Virus record (IMG/VR): IMGVR_UViG_3300047560_000203
Span: 1 to 29,644 of that record
Direction: 5' to 3' (one strand)
DNA from: a virus
Length of the DNA: 29,644 bases
Shown here: piece by piece, positions 70-13,351 of the stretch
How positions within the stretch are numbered: the stretch's first letter is position 1
Layout of the letters: every line of letters begins with the position of its first letter
The notes under the pieces: generated by a model
Databases searched by the model: none
What the model was told of the DNA's origin: nothing
Seen by the model: only the letters and a program-made list of their open reading frames with translations
Position numbers and translations under genes: made by a program

Positions 70-98
70 CCGTTCCACGTGAAACATTGGAGGATCAC

Positions 99-257
99 AT
101 GTTCCTAACCTGCGCCCAAGGCCACGACCTCACCGCTCCCGATGCCTACCTGTACCAGAACAACGGCAACCGAGACTGCCGCCTATGCAGCCCCCGTGCC
201 CCCCGCAAGAAGCCATCAGGCAGCACATGGCATGAGAAGCGGGCCACGTTCGCATGA
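99..257 (+). CDS. small zinc-ribbon-like protein, 52 aa
   Basis: The start ATG at 99 is chosen because a strong GGAGG lies at 89-93, five bases upstream. A longer reading from ATG 42 has no comparable site. The protein begins MFLTCAQGHDLT and contains CxxGH early and CRLC about 25 residues later, so two Cys pairs or a Cys/His set could bind one zinc ion. The tail is basic (APRKKPSGS). This spacing resembles the zinc-binding part of small phage HNH-type proteins, but no HNH catalytic core is visible, so nuclease activity should not be assumed. The stop overlaps the next ATG (ATGA at 254-257). Confidence 0.65.
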   Translation: MFLTCAQGHDLTAPDAYLYQNNGNRDCRLCSPRAPRKKPSGSTWHEKRATFA

Positions 258-349
258 AGCAGTTCTATGGCCGCTGGAAGCGGGATAAGAAAACAGGAGG
301 GCTTATATGGAAATGGAAGCGCCGCAAGGTAAAGAAGAGCAAGCCATGA
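254..349 (+). CDS. very small basic protein, 31 aa (possible)
   Basis: A short frame runs from ATG 254 to TGA 347-349. It overlaps the gene before by ATGA and meets an in-frame ATG of the next gene by ATGA at 346-349. The peptide is strongly basic and aromatic (for example LIWKWKRRKVKKSKP at its end), as in a nucleic-acid-binding or membrane-active peptide. Two matching ATGA junctions make it more than a chance frame. However, it has no clear ribosome site of its own, and the AGGAGG used by the next gene lies inside it. Function unknown. Confidence 0.4.
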   Translation: MKQFYGRWKRDKKTGGLIWKWKRRKVKKSKP

Positions 350-714
350 CCCACGACCCGCTATGCGAATGGTCAACGCCCTGTATTCACGGTGAGAACC
401 AGCAGCACTCACGGGATACCGAGAACCTAGCCGTACCAGACGCAACGTACTGCTGGATGTGCGGCGCGGATTGCACCTGTGACCTCATCGCCAAGGTGCG
501 AGAGGACATGCTCGCCAAGTGCATCGCGGCGGTGCGGCCAGCAGCCGAGTTCCAGATTTGTTTCGCTGCAAACTTGTGGTCGTGTGATCCGATGAACTGC
601 GAACTTTGCGATTGCGGCATGGATTCTGCTGGCCGTCAGCAGATTGCAGACACGGCGCACAGTCAAACGGAAATGGTGCTGGATGCCCTGCGTGCCCTAC
701 AGGAGAAGCCATGA
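307..714 (+). CDS. Cys/His-rich small protein, copy A of a repeated module family, 135 aa
   Basis: ATG 307 sits six bases after a perfect AGGAGG (295-300). A second in-frame ATG at 346 begins MTHDPLC, the usual start of this family and of the related gene at 890, and it overlaps the gene before by ATGA, so either start may be used. Three parts are visible. The first is a Cys/His region (HDPLC, then CWMCGADCTCD) suited to zinc binding. The second is a helix-like IAKVREDMLAKCIAAV stretch followed by another Cys cluster (CELCDCG). The last is a conserved tail, ALRALQEKP. Short HDPLC proteins with a following IAxVR helix are common in actinobacterial phages, with no assigned role. The tail is repeated in the next two genes. 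Confidence 0.75.
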   Translation: MEMEAPQGKEEQAMTHDPLCEWSTPCIHGENQQHSRDTENLAVPDATYCWMCGADCTCDLIAKVREDMLAKCIAAVRPAAEFQICFAANLWSCDPMNCELCDCGMDSAGRQQIADTAHSQTEMVLDALRALQEKP

Positions 715-1170
715 GCGACCTAGACATCAGCCGTCTTCAACAGCAGTCCTACAGGCGGGGACAGCGGCACATGCTCGCCAAATGCATCGCGCTCATTCAG
801 GAATCCGTCCCATGGAGCGCAAACAACTGGATAGCAGTGGACGAGCGGGCAGCGATCCTCACCGCTCTACGTGCCCTACAGGAGAAGTCATGAAACACGA
901 CCCGCTATGCCCGTTCGCTCCGTGGCCGGACGAGCACTGCTACCAGCCGGACGCCGGAGTGAGCGTCTGCTCAATCATCGCCAAGGTTCGTGAAGACATG
1001 TCTAATAGTACGCAGATTCTTGGCTCCAAGCCAAGAAGGTGCGTACTGGAGTACGAGGCAGGCGTTGCGGCTGGCCGAGCGGAGGCGTTGGGTATCCGCG
1101 TGCGTGAAGTCATGCCGTACGCGAACGGCTATTTCGACGGCGAGGACCACATGCTCGCCAAGTGCATCGC
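506..1170 (+). repeat. 22-base repeat inside three adjacent genes (MLAKCIA module)
   Basis: Near-identical copies lie at 506-527, 769-790 and 1149-1170. The first and third are identical; the second differs by one base (AAATG for AAGTG). Each encodes the residues HMLAKCIA or DMLAKCIA, in the same frame of its gene. Because the DNA and not only the protein is conserved, the duplications look recent, or are kept alike by recombination. Confidence 0.85.
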
Positions 1171-1291
1171 AGCAGTAGAGGCAGTCTCACACGACTTCCA
1201 TTGCACATCTTTGGATGTCCGAAAGCCACCGTGTAACTGTCCACAAGGCGACGCCCTTGACGCTCTGCGTGCCTTACAGGAGAAGCCATCA
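685..1291 (+). repeat. 30-base repeat at three gene ends (ALRALQEK tail plus ribosome site plus start)
   Basis: Copies lie at 685-714, 864-893 and 1262-1291. Each encodes the tail ALRALQEK and contains ACAGGAGAAG, which serves as the ribosome site of the following gene, then the start/stop junction. The junction is ATGA in the first two copies and ATCA in the third. The repeat thus carries a protein tail and a translation-coupling signal together. Confidence 0.85.
711..893 (+). CDS. small protein, copy B of the repeated module family, 60 aa
   Basis: The start is ATG 711, overlapping the previous stop by ATGA and preceded by AGGAG at 701-705. The protein is mostly helical-looking. It carries the middle module (RHMLAKCIALIQES) and the shared tail (ALRALQEKS) but lacks the N-terminal Cys/His module, so it is a reduced version of its neighbours. 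It has one Cys and no obvious metal site. It is probably co-translated with both neighbours. The shared modules suggest duplication within the phage. Function unknown. Confidence 0.7.
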   Translation: MSDLDISRLQQQSYRRGQRHMLAKCIALIQESVPWSANNWIAVDERAAILTALRALQEKS

Positions 1292-1303
1292 GCCGCCGAG
1301 TAG
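890..1303 (+). CDS. Cys/His-rich small protein, copy C of the repeated module family, 137 aa
   Basis: The start is ATG 890, with ATGA overlap and AGGAG at 880-884. It opens MKHDPLCPF and repeats the IAKVREDM helix seen in copy A. About 60 new residues (with the AGVAAGRAEALG helix) follow, then the MLAKCIAAV module, a Cys cluster (CNCPQG) and the tail ALRALQEKP. Unlike copies A and B, the tail is not followed at once by a stop. Four extra residues (SAAE) are added before TAG 1301-1303, because the expected ATGA junction reads ATCA here. The last 16 bases overlap the glycosyltransferase frame. It is probably zinc-binding; its role is unknown. Confidence 0.75.
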   Translation: MKHDPLCPFAPWPDEHCYQPDAGVSVCSIIAKVREDMSNSTQILGSKPRRCVLEYEAGVAAGRAEALGIRVREVMPYANGYFDGEDHMLAKCIAAVEAVSHDFHCTSLDVRKPPCNCPQGDALDALRALQEKPSAAE

Positions 1304-2346
1304 CGTTCCTCACCCGCGACCTCTACGGAGAACCACCCAACATCTCCCCCGGAGGCTGCGCCTTCTACCGCTGCTACCTCCCCATGGCAGTCCTAGGACT
1401 CCGCGCCAACCTAGGGCTGCCCGTCTACGACCCACTACGCGGCTACGGGGTCATGGAAAACTCCACGATAGGCATGTACGGATTCGACACCATCATGCTG
1501 AAACTCATCATGGACCGGGGTACCGCACAGATGATGCGCCTAGCCCGCAACAACGTCGGTCAAAAGTTCATCATGGACGTAGACGACTACTACAAGGGAC
1601 TGACACCAGCGAACAAGGCATACGCACTGTCCAACGAGGAAACCAACAAGAAAGCCAACCGGGCCTTCTACGAGGAAGCCCTCGCTGAAGCCGACCTCAT
1701 CACCGTATCCACACCGTTCCTACTGGAACACCACTCCAAGACTCACCCCAATGTGCGGATGATCCGCAACGGAGTCAACCCCAACATGTTCGATCCCGTA
1801 GTCCAGAACACGAAACCCGTCATCGGCTGGACCGGTTCCACGAACTTCCGCAACAACGATCTAGAGCAACTACGCGAATGGCTGCCAGACTTCCTAGAGG
1901 AACACGACCTTATGGTCCACCACGCAGGCCACGCGGACAACGCTCCCCCCTTTCACGCTGTAACAGGAGTGAACCCTGATCGTGTCAGGACGACGCCGCT
2001 CACCCTGATCACCCACTACGCCCAAGGGTTCAGGTTCGACATCGGACTCGTTCCACTCAATGACATTGAGTTTAACCACGCCAAGTCCAACATCAAAGGA
2101 CTGGAATACGCCGCCGCAGGAATCCCCTTCATCGCTACCGACACACCCGAGTACCGTCTGCTCCACGAAGCCGGTGTCGGACGTATCGTTCGTACCGCCG
2201 ACGATTGGCGACATAACGCGCAAGACCTACTGTCGCTACACACGCGAAGGCTAGAAGCCAAACGCATTCGACAAATAGTGCTACGCGACTGGTCAATAGA
2301 CGCACGGAAGGAAGAGTGGCGTGACGCATTCAATTCCCTACTTTAG
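1288..2346 (+). CDS. GT-B fold glycosyltransferase, probable ATC start
   Basis: From the first ATG (1384) this gives 320 residues, but the frame stays open back to 1261 and reads like the usual N-terminus of this enzyme family: RRVAFLTRD, then GGCAFYRCYLPM. That is a first beta strand followed by the GG-x-YYR-LP motif of phage glycosyltransferases. No ATG, GTG or TTG occurs in frame between the stop at 1258 and ATG 1384. The base positions match an ATC at 1288, placed behind ACAGGAGAAG exactly as the ATGs of the previous genes are. From 1288 the product has 352 residues. The C-terminal half has the nucleotide-sugar-binding pattern of family 1/4 enzymes (FDIGLVPL, then KSNIKGLEYAAAGIPF, about residues 250-285). 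It probably transfers a sugar from an activated nucleotide donor; the acceptor is unknown. Confidence 0.8.
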   Translation: MSRRVAFLTRDLYGEPPNISPGGCAFYRCYLPMAVLGLRANLGLPVYDPLRGYGVMENSTIGMYGFDTIMLKLIMDRGTAQMMRLARNNVGQKFIMDVDDYYKGLTPANKAYALSNEETNKKANRAFYEEALAEADLITVSTPFLLEHHSKTHPNVRMIRNGVNPNMFDPVVQNTKPVIGWTGSTNFRNNDLEQLREWLPDFLEEHDLMVHHAGHADNAPPFHAVTGVNPDRVRTTPLTLITHYAQGFRFDIGLVPLNDIEFNHAKSNIKGLEYAAAGIPFIATDTPEYRLLHEAGVGRIVRTADDWRHNAQDLLSLHTRRLEAKRIRQIVLRDWSIDARKEEWRDAFNSLL

Positions 2347-3001
2347 GAACTGGCACGAGAACACAGACATCTACGTCCTAGGGTCAGGGGCAACGCTCTC
2401 CCACATTAACCCAAGATTCTTTGAAGACAAGATCATCGTTGCTACCAATTTGGTATCAGATCGCATGGGCCTATACGACCGCTGCGACTGGGTATACACC
2501 CACGGCCACTACCACACAGACATGATCCCGCTGGCCCACAAATACCCGCACTGGTTCTTTGCTCCCCGAGGCAACGAAGGACTCACCGGGGAACCTCCAG
2601 CGGATACGCCAGCGAACGTCGTGTTCTACGACCATAAAGTGAACCAGTACGAGTTCGACGTAGACCAAGCATGGCCCGACAGCCCCAACGGGCTACTCGT
2701 CGGCAGCACCAGCCTCCACGGCTCCATGCACTTAGCCGCCCACTTAGGAGCCAACAACATCATCCTCGTCGGTGCTGACTGCGGCATCCTTGACGGAGAA
2801 ACCAACCACGGCAAATACAAGTCCGGCAACCTCGTCACCAGCGATGCCCGCATGTGGCTGCACCGCTGGGAGATGCACCTACGTCAGGTCAAGCGGAAAC
2901 TGACAGAGCAGTACCCGCACATCGGGATCTACTCCCTGAACCCGTTCCTTAACCTCAACCTTGAAGGACATAGGTGGGAGGGGACTACACCTTCAGCGTA
3001 G
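2321..3001 (+). CDS. DUF115 / MptE-like protein, possible glycosyl- or sialyltransferase relative, 226 aa
   Basis: The start is GTG 2321, inside the end of the glycosyltransferase gene, behind GGAAGGAAG. The N-terminus DIYVLGSGATL (residues 16-26) is the Gly-rich nucleotide-binding loop of the DUF115 group. The group includes MptE-like pterin kinases, flagellin-modifying Maf proteins and relatives of CMP-sialyltransferases. A second signature, GSTSLHGSMHLAAHLGANN then LVGADCG (128-155), matches the second conserved region of that fold. With the overlapping glycosyltransferase it forms a probable sugar-transfer or sugar-processing pair. The substrate cannot be told. It runs head-on into the Dps-like gene, overlapping it by 17 bases. 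Confidence 0.7.
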   Translation: MTHSIPYFRNWHENTDIYVLGSGATLSHINPRFFEDKIIVATNLVSDRMGLYDRCDWVYTHGHYHTDMIPLAHKYPHWFFAPRGNEGLTGEPPADTPANVVFYDHKVNQYEFDVDQAWPDSPNGLLVGSTSLHGSMHLAAHLGANNIILVGADCGILDGETNHGKYKSGNLVTSDARMWLHRWEMHLRQVKRKLTEQYPHIGIYSLNPFLNLNLEGHRWEGTTPSA

Positions 3002-3422
3002 CCTTCAACTGCCAGCGCCACTTCTTGTGCATGTCGTCCCGCTCGGCAAGGAAGTTGGCAATTCCCTGCTCGTCAGCCAAAGAGGCAGCATCAAACGCTG
3101 CACTAATAGACTCAAGCACCCGCTCATTCGCGGCGTACAGGTCAGCAGAAAGTTCAATGGGATCAGTGCTGAACTTGTCGTCTTCCACTGTCCGCATCTT
3201 GTTCAGGTCGGCAAGAGTGAATGGCGGGAACTGACGCAGTTTGCGAATGTCCTCAGCGGTTGGATCAATAGACGAGTACACGTCTTCATAGATTTCTTGG
3301 AAGAACTCATGAAATGTGGAAAACATGGGGCCTTCCACGTTCCAATGTGCGCTATGCGCCTTGAGATACATGGCGAACTGATTCGCAAGCAGTTCCTTTA
3401 GGGCAGTGATCAGATCATTCAC
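2985..3422 (-). CDS. Dps-like ferritin, 145 aa
   Basis: Dps proteins form 12-subunit shells that oxidise Fe(II) and protect DNA from peroxide. The signature is clear: HW-N-x-x-G-PMF-x-x-FHEFF (26-41), then a helix with YSSID and AED. Aligned by eye to E. coli Dps, ferroxidase positions His51, His63, Asp78 and Glu82 correspond to H26, H38, D53 and E57. Asp67 corresponds to Q42, a substitution that may change iron chemistry. It is shorter than bacterial Dps (about 160-170 residues), lacking an N-terminal Lys-rich arm. It is the last gene of the accessory - strand block. A protective role during infection, or scavenging of iron, is inferred. ATG 3422 follows GGAT. Confidence 0.85.
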   Translation of the reverse strand: MNDLITALKELLANQFAMYLKAHSAHWNVEGPMFSTFHEFFQEIYEDVYSSIDPTAEDIRKLRQFPPFTLADLNKMRTVEDDKFSTDPIELSADLYAANERVLESISAAFDAASLADEQGIANFLAERDDMHKKWRWQLKATLKV

Positions 3423-11007: not shown

Positions 11008-12050
11008 GCTGCCGCCTCTTCGTAAAACTTCAGATTACGATGGATTCTATCGTCATAAGGAGACAACTTAAGTGCCTCCATGCCGTGGAACGCTGCCTCA
11101 TGGAAGTAGCCCAGACGGTATGCCGCTATAGCCGCAAGATCATGCGGAAGCGAGCCCCACGCAAAAGCCTCAGTCAAATACTCCAGCGGGCGCTCCTTCA
11201 CAGACAGCGCCTTGACCGCTGCCGCCAGACAGGACTCCCAGTCCTCCTTATCGTGAGCAAACTGGGCGATCTCAATCCATGCCTCGCGTCTGTCCGGGCA
11301 CTCCGTCACAGCGTCATACAGCCACTTAGAATCGCCAGTGATCTTCCACAGGTAGCGCATGGATGCGGCCCGCTCAGGCTTCCATGTAGCCTTCCTCAAT
11401 CCCAGATGGCGGCGGAACTCCACCGCTGCCTCATCCATGCGGCCCGCAAAGAAATACTCGCGCGCCAGATAGTGCGCGTTCCGGTCATCCTCCGGGTCCT
11501 CCAGCACAGCCAGTTCCAGCAGCGGAAGATACTGCGACCGGGACTTAGACGGGTCAGGATGATGATGGATCTCCAGCCCATACCAGCCCTGCACTTCATC
11601 CTTAGTCGGGGTCAGTACCTCATGGACCGGGTGCTTCCACTCATACCCCCAGCGGGAATGGATCTTATCCCCGCCATACACAAGACCGGGTTTGCCACCA
11701 ACCTCCCACGACCATGTGTACTTATAGCGGGGCCGGGTCACACCATCCGCGTAAGCGGCCTCAAGATGCTCACGCCAACCCTCAACTAGAACTTCATCCA
11801 TATCCAAAGCAACACACAGGTCCACGTCGCTAGGGATCATTTCAAGAGCCATGTTGCGGGCGGCATCAAACCGCCAAGGGTTGAACTCCCAGCGGCGCAC
11901 ATCAATCCCAAGATCACGGGCCAGCGTCACCGTGTCATCCGTGGAACCCGTATCAAGAATGTGCAGGCTGTCTGCTTCCTTAGCGGACTCAAACCAACGC
12001 TGCACAAACCGTGCCTCGTTCTTAGCGATGGTGTAGACGGCGATCTTCAC
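11004..12050 (-). CDS. GT2 family glycosyltransferase with C-terminal helical repeats, 348 aa
   Basis: GTG 12050 overlaps the collagen-like gene's stop by GTGA. The GT-A fold opens [19 protein letters not shown] with the family 2 pattern K-N-E. Then come LDTGSTDDT (32-40) and the metal-binding DxD motif in ALDMDE (81-86). HPVHE and YGLEIHHHP follow, as in SunS- and LgtF-like members. The remaining 150 residues look like TPR repeats ([60 protein letters not shown]), which usually hold the protein acceptor. Such an enzyme transfers a sugar from UDP- or GDP-sugar to a protein. Its position within the fibre genes makes the fibre the likely substrate. Confidence 0.85.
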
Positions 12051-13351
12051 ATGCCCCCCATAAGAATACTTATGGTGATGGGATCAGAAGATGCCGCTCC
12101 AGCAGGTCCCGTTGGTCCAGTCGCCCCAGTAGGTCCGGTAACTGTTGACGCGGCTCCCGTAGCACCCGTAGGCCCGGTAGGTCCCGTGGGACCAGTTGCT
12201 CCATTAGTTCCGTTAGAACCAGCAGGACCCGTAGGACCAAGTGCACCCTGCGGGCCAGTAGGACCGGTAGCCCCGTCAACACCGGGAGTGCCCTGCGGAC
12301 CCGTAGCACCAGTCGGGCCAGTAACCGTGGAAGCAGCACCCGTAGGGCCAGTGGGTCCCTGAGCGCCAGTAGCGCCCGCTGCACCAGCCGCACCCGTAGG
12401 ACCGGTGGGACCAGTAGCGCCATCAGCACCGATATAACCCGGCGCCCCGGTAGGACCAGTGGGACCGGTAGGGCCGGTCACGTTGGATGCAAGTCCCTGC
12501 GCACCGGTGGGTCCGGTAGGGCCAGTAGCACCATCTAAGCCACTAGCACCGGTAGGACCAGTGTTGCCTTGAATACCCTGAATGCCCTGAGCGCCAGTCG
12601 GTCCCTGTGCTCCCGTTGGTCCCGTAGCACCCGTGGGACCGGTCGCTCCCGTAGGGCCAGTGACCGTTGACGCTGCACCCGTGGGACCAGTAGGACCGAC
12701 AGCGCCCACCGCACCCGACAGGTTCACTTCCCACAGCGAGTAAGTGCCACTGCCTTCCTTCTCGGTTACGTGGGCGACGACAGCGCCAGTAGCAACGTTG
12801 TAGGTGTCGATCTCGGCGTGCATATGGTTGGCGTAGTCATATGACACAAGGATTGTCTGGTTCGTGCTGTATGACAGGCCAGCGGGAATAGTGAAGTTGA
12901 TTGTTCCGCTGGAAACGATAGCCATCGTGGTTGTAGAAGTCGTCTGGTAATGGTCACCCTGAGGACCCGTAGGCCCAGTCGGGCCAGTAACAGAATTACC
13001 CTGCGGACCCGTAGGGCCAGTTGGCCCGGTTGGACCCTGTACACCCTGATACCCCTGCGCACCCGTGGGACCCTGCGCGCCCGTAGCGCCAATAGGACCC
13101 TGCGCCCCAGTCGGACCAGTCGGACCCTCCACACCTTGAGCGCCCGTAGGGCCAGTCACATTAGACGCAGCACCCGTCGCCCCGGTTGCACCCGTTGGAC
13201 CAGTAGCACCAGTCGGGCCAGTCGGTCCAGCCGGAATGTTCCCCACCGCAGAATTGAGCGTATTAATAGCCTCAATAACAAGATTAATATCCCCCGCCGG
13301 GGCACCATCACCGGGGGTCTTATTAGGCTGCGGCAGAGTCAGACTCGGCAT
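12047..13351 (-). CDS. collagen-like tail fibre protein, 434 aa
   Basis: ATG 13351 follows AAGGA. Residues 1-40 are a non-collagen head ([20 protein letters not shown]), probably the attachment helix. Residues 41-132 and 218-420 are Gly-X-Y repeats, mostly Gly-Pro-Thr (about 36 GPT triplets), Gly-Ala-Thr and Gly-Ala-Gln. The repeat is broken at several places by short SNVTG or STVTG interruptions. Between the two blocks lies a beta domain (133-217, with [17 protein letters not shown] and [15 protein letters not shown]). The end is [14 protein letters not shown]. Such chains form a triple helix, giving a thin trimeric fibre. There is no prolyl hydroxylase near, so stability would come from Pro, Thr and perhaps glycosylation. 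Confidence 0.9.

Follow-up and report, generated by a model that had tools for sequence, protein, structure and literature searches.

An ATC codon at the expected ATGA junction of a phage glycosyltransferase gene: a possible recent loss of a coupled start

Introduction

Where does the glycosyltransferase encoded near the left end of this viral DNA begin, and how did an ATC codon come to stand at the position where its relatives start? We analyzed the whole stretch of 29,644 nucleotides, referred to here as the window, in which a cassette of small genes runs up to the glycosyltransferase gene. The answer bears on annotation, which, if done automatically, would trim 32 conserved residues from a conserved enzyme. 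The locus is also a clean natural test case of a single base serving as both start and stop.

The glycosyltransferase gene and its product

The reading frame of the enzyme is open from 1261 to 2346, beginning after a TGA at 1258–1260. Its translation matched the phrog_7162 phage glycosyltransferase profile (E 3.5e-34, residues 21–347). The predicted structure, of medium confidence (pLDDT 67, pTM 0.67, with residues 11–25 poorly defined), has a GT-B fold; its best structure match was GlgM (6tvp, E 6.2e-11), followed by PimA, MshA and BshA. The Pfam gathering cut-offs were missed by Glyco_trans_1_4 (21.0 versus 27 bits) and Glyco_trans_1_2 (21.4 versus 25 bits). The E-x7-E motif of CAZy family GT4, read by eye, was absent, with the invariant E273 present and residue 265 being Ala in all aligned sequences. 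No relative turned up in genome contigs searched with the protein, and when the first 8 kb were compared with sequenced phages by blastn, nothing matched. The features of the region are listed in Table 1.

Table 1. Features around the start of the glycosyltransferase gene in the window.
Feature	Coordinates	Strand	Remarks
parS-like palindrome GTTCCACGTGAAAC	72..85		Its GTG is the glycosyltransferase start codon in L001
Stretch present in the window, absent from L001	86..1297		1,212 bp, clean presence/absence
First small cassette gene	99..257	+	Own GGAGG
31-residue basic small gene	254..349	+	ATGA coupling at both ends, without ACAGGAGAAG
Small cassette gene	346..714	+	Ends LQEKP, ATGA coupling to next gene
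Small cassette gene	711..893	+	Ends LQEKS, ATGA coupling to next gene
Upstream small gene	890..1303	+	Four residues, SAAE, beyond the normal LQEKP end
GT-B glycosyltransferase gene	1288..2346	+	352 residues from the ATC; supported by alignment to five distinct relatives, phrog_7162 and GT-B fold matches
First canonical in-frame ATG	1384..1386	+	Internal Met 33, within helix 1 of the predicted model; no Shine-Dalgarno sequence, +1.4 kcal/mol
Next gene	2321..3001	+	226 aa, GTG start, 26-base overlap with glycosyltransferase end; weak MptE-like / sialyltransferase-like matches

Two other genes of the window may be mentioned here. Adjoining the glycosyltransferase block on the minus strand (2985–3422) is a candidate Dps-type ferritin-like protein, recognized by eye, with homologues in the related genomes G001 and G006. 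Another minus-strand gene (12047–13351) encodes a collagen-like protein (GPTGPTG, 434 residues) on which phage glycosyltransferases may act.

The junction at position 1288

The anomalous base is C1290, the last base of the ATC at 1288–1290 on the plus strand, where the junction reads ATCA (1288–1291). These coordinates agree with the original prediction, which had also proposed that this one base explains both the lost start and the run-on of the preceding gene, a proposal that our results support. An AGGAG Shine-Dalgarno sequence (1278–1282, plus strand) lies five bases 5' of the ATC, and the anti-Shine-Dalgarno pairing energy at this codon, −7.4 kcal/mol, is equal to that at the sibling start at 890. 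When ATG, GTG, TTG, CTG, ATT, ATC, ATA and ACG were all counted as start-like, the glycosyltransferase frame 5' of ATG 1384 contained only ATC 1288 and ATC 1342, of which ATC 1288 is the sole start-like codon at the site where the relatives start. The conserved N-terminal region holds no canonical start.

The junction lies in the third copy of a module of about 45 bases, ACAGGAGAAG-NCATGA, which occurs three times within 620 bases (679–723, 858–902 and 1256–1300). In this module CTACAGGAGAAGNC encodes LRALQEK-P/S, the AGGAG is the Shine-Dalgarno sequence of the following gene, and the ATGA is a joint start and stop. The module precedes the genes at 711 and 890, and its third copy fronts the glycosyltransferase with the same AGGAG; this copy alone reads ATCA. 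The glycosyltransferase and its neighbor consequently do not form an ATGA-coupled pair, and the upstream gene continues through LQEKP-SAAE to the next stop, the TAG at 1301–1303. The earlier statement that every junction in the cassette combines ATGA with the repeat held for ATGA, which is also found at 254 and 346, and failed for ACAGGAGAAG, which occurs only before 711, 890 and 1288.

To judge how unusual this junction is, we considered 12 other module genes from the window and other viral contigs, which are not fully independent, as some of the source contigs are related to each other. The 18-base module pattern occurs in 30 viral contigs, many by chance, and genes were kept only where an open upstream frame ended in an LQEK-type protein end. 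All 12 stop directly after LQEK[PSQ], which bears out the earlier claim that SAAE is absent from the paralogues, and 11 of them do so via ATGA. The exception, in L045 (reverse strand, gene end at 472 of the reverse complement), reads LQEKP-TAG followed by GTG and is the sole other departure at such junctions. The 27 other gene starts in the window are all ATG, GTG or TTG. Judged by these counts, the ATC at the junction is more than a chance irregularity. When viral contigs were searched by exact pattern for another copy of this junction, only the record of L001 was returned, and all four hits in genome contigs, from unrelated bacteria and one archaeon, were fortuitous. None of the hits was a near-identical second copy, in collections that may lack near-identical records.

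The small proteins encoded at 346–1303 belong with those of L011, L018, L019, L029, L032, L020, L026 and L045 to a family of small, fast-changing phage proteins that have the pieces HDPLC, IAKVREDM, MLAKCIAAV and LRALQEKP in common. Their C-terminal codons carry the Shine-Dalgarno sequence of the next gene, and the order and number of the genes vary among contigs, as if they were shuffled at shared junctions.

The start position in relatives

We compared five distinct relatives of the enzyme: L001 (89% identical), L002 (74%), L036 and L040 (63%; two related contigs), and L037, which stands with the near-identical L038, L039 and L032 (53–54%). The start codon is ATG in four of them and GTG in one. 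In 5/5 the start lies one to three codons ahead of the conserved segment [RT][VI][AG]F.TRD (RVAFLTRD), with the first codons reading GTG AAA CGA GTA in L001, ATG CGA CAT ATA in L002, ATG ACC AGA GTT in L036 and L040, and ATG ACT ATC GGG in L037; the window protein has one extra residue before RVAF with respect to L001. As had been proposed, the family start is thus at 1288 and not at 1384. The anti-Shine-Dalgarno energies at these starts range from −1.1 to −3.6 kcal/mol in L001 (−3.6), L036/L040 and L037, and reach −7.2 kcal/mol in L002.

Comparison of the relatives at the junction, which the original prediction had suggested as a check, showed that those bearing the cassette join the enzyme via ATGA. 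The enzyme start overlaps the preceding gene as ATGA in L036/L040 and L037, and the cassette relatives L032 and L037–L039 read ...NALKEQP-ATGA at the equivalent junction. It had been argued that such relatives would make the base in the window an error. In that form the argument is not supported, as the relatives in question are only 53–63% identical in protein; their sequences suggest that ATG is ancestral, which is not the same as a wrong base call.

The in-frame ATG at position 1384

In the predicted fold, strand 1 comprises residues 5–9 and helix 1 comprises residues 27–39. Because this model places Met 33 midway along helix 1, a protein starting at 1384 would lose strand 1, the invariant GGC-FYR loop and half of helix 1, and the model thereby marks the removed N-terminal segment as structurally important. 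None of the five relatives starts at the equivalent of Met 33, so that no relative begins there without the upstream motif. The frame 5' of ATG 1384 encodes the conserved N-terminus RVAFLTRD…GGCAFYRC, which relatives share and which had rightly been taken as the normal N-terminus of the family. Between the window and L001, codons 4–32 show three synonymous and two non-synonymous differences, and on these small counts pN/pS is 0.23, compared to 0.18 downstream. Codons 4–32 thus appear to evolve like coding sequence, under constraint as in the rest of the gene.

The cassette edge

In L001, the closest relative, the cassette is absent, and CACGTGAAAC is directly joined to GAGTAGCG. The difference reflects a gain in the lineage of the window or a loss in L001. 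The original prediction offered four explanations for the junction and missed this 1.2-kb cassette edge, which adds a fifth, a recombination seam.

The enzyme of L001 starts at a GTG that belongs to the palindrome GTTTCACGTGAAAC; the Shine-Dalgarno sequence of this start is weak. This palindrome occurs at 72–85 of the window with one mismatch, at 2915–2928 of L001 and at 1520–1533 of L002, in a like position in the three related phages, directly after the CGCYE-IG gene; the number of parS-like palindromes expected by chance in the window is 0.06. Exact GTTTCACGTGAAAC is listed as the chromosomal parS of Mycobacterium smegmatis (PMC7022226). The ParB N-domain family was not found in the window, L001 and L002 records, which are fragments. 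The palindrome may serve as a site at which host ParB docks.

Discussion

We give about an even chance to the reading that a single base changed recently, so that an ATGA-coupled start was lost and only weak initiation at AUC, behind a strong Shine-Dalgarno sequence, was left. In the normal state, the glycosyltransferase would begin at 1288 and be ATGA-coupled to the preceding gene behind the repeated AGGAGAAG module. A recent change from ATGA to ATCA in the phage lineage would have abolished at one stroke both the start codon and the stop of the upstream gene. Strongly reduced expression of the enzyme is then to be expected, because the full-length product could arise only through weak initiation at the AUC behind the intact Shine-Dalgarno sequence, a site now 13 bases ahead of the stop at which the upstream gene newly ends; the result would be a strong knock-down, not necessarily a null. 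This reading builds on where the family starts, on the ATGA-type junctions of the relatives and the sibling modules, on a frame that is intact, on the missing alternative start, and on the importance that the predicted model gives to the removed segment. We infer that nature, and not a consensus error, put the C at this site, that the change is recent, and that AUC initiation is low but non-zero. Against this reading, the closest relative, L001, has no cassette that would show the immediate ancestor of the junction, and the cassette relatives with ATGA are 53–54% identical.

An AUC codon offers the initiator tRNA two of the three base pairs. PMC9094748 describes AUC as a start seldom found in nature, and an E. 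coli survey, as cited in PMC12350097, places it among the seven strongest start codons, yet as a minor one. In B. subtilis, mutation of the start codon of a rny-lacZ fusion to AUC gave “much lower expression levels” (PMC10303841). Weak third-base pairs yielded very little full-length product in vitro (PMC10158994), and for this reason the change at C1290 is possibly close to null. Because re-initiation uses starts that overlap a stop or lie a few bases from it (PMC2268962), loss of the ATGA has perhaps also weakened the coupling.

A consensus error, by which the phage has ATGA and base 1290 was miscalled or mis-assembled, fits the site equally well, and only plausibility sets it apart from a natural mutation; we hold it to be a serious possibility, though well short of an even one. 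C1290 is present in a single record only, one change would repair two anomalies, and the rest of the gene, with its N-terminus, shows no decay. Near-identical cassette repeats, here a module in three closely spaced copies, can moreover confuse an assembler. On the other hand, a mix-up of repeats would not yield C, because the other two module copies in the window carry G. The orthologues compared show no other damage, and because they match those of G006, a 41.9-kb relative, and of G001 free of frame breaks, the window record does not look error-ridden. We regard the junction as an accident confined to this locus, or else an error of sequencing, and not as a new mechanism.

We consider it unlikely that the C arrived with joined sequence and not by point mutation, when the cassette was inserted before an L001-like gene and the old start, the GTG of the palindrome (window 79–81), was left 1.2 kb upstream. 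The clean 1,212-bp difference from L001, where GTGAAAC and GAGTAGCG meet, would fit such a seam, as would the fact that the bases common to every module copy reach only to ...CAT. However, L001 may equally be a derived deletion, and the cassette already exists with ATGA at the same junction in L032/L037. The bases that follow the glycosyltransferase start (AGC) also match the module starts at 711 and in L011. Because of this match and because the ATGA cassette exists in L032/L037–L039, we prefer a cassette that had a normal ATG and later lost the G.

It is also unlikely that the AUC is used and selected, as a tuned start in which a strong inherited Shine-Dalgarno sequence is offset by a weak codon and the enzyme is kept low. 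The downgrade of the start codon would then compensate the upgrade of the Shine-Dalgarno sequence brought by the duplicated gene-junction module. The initiation regions of most relatives (L001, L036/L040 and L037), which are weak in a different way, through their Shine-Dalgarno sequences, are consistent with such tuning, and the AUU of infC, a known regulatory near-cognate start as cited in PMC2268962, provides a precedent. Against this, ATC is conserved in no relative, all five having ATG or GTG, and L002 combines a good Shine-Dalgarno sequence with ATG. The SAAE run-on of the upstream gene would also be left without explanation.

That the protein truly begins at ATG 1384 and the part upstream is untranslated is very improbable: this is the first canonical start, which any automatic caller limited to ATG, GTG and TTG would pick, but it has no Shine-Dalgarno sequence, its use would remove the invariant GGC-FYR motif and strand 1, L036/L040 have no Met there, and the codons 5' of it appear constrained. 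Fusion of the upstream gene to the enzyme by −1 frameshifting in the overlap at 1261–1303, where the two frames share 43 bases and are related by −1, is hardly credible either and was rejected, as the relatives keep separate genes and the upstream frame contains no slippery heptamer of the form X XXY YYZ.

Should the base be real, an accessory enzyme of the phage has been knocked down naturally; should the AUC be used, this would be one of few such starts documented in phages. Failing that, the outcome is an annotation correction only.

The enzyme resembles the phrog_7162 family, and in particular gene 174 of Arthrobacter phage Racecar (30% identity, with the alignment running from GGC-YR, ten residues past the annotated start of that gene), in its short N-terminus ahead of the GGC-YR motif; it differs in that the first codon is ATC and not a canonical one. 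ATGA translational coupling is found at two of the window's three copies of the module and at nearly all copies in relatives, whereas the glycosyltransferase junction reads ATCA, with the stop moved to 1301–1303 and a non-canonical start. Like the AUU start of infC, the AUC is an AUN codon behind a good Shine-Dalgarno sequence, and the conserved N-terminus has no canonical start; unlike the infC codon, it is not conserved in relatives and is known here from sequence alone.
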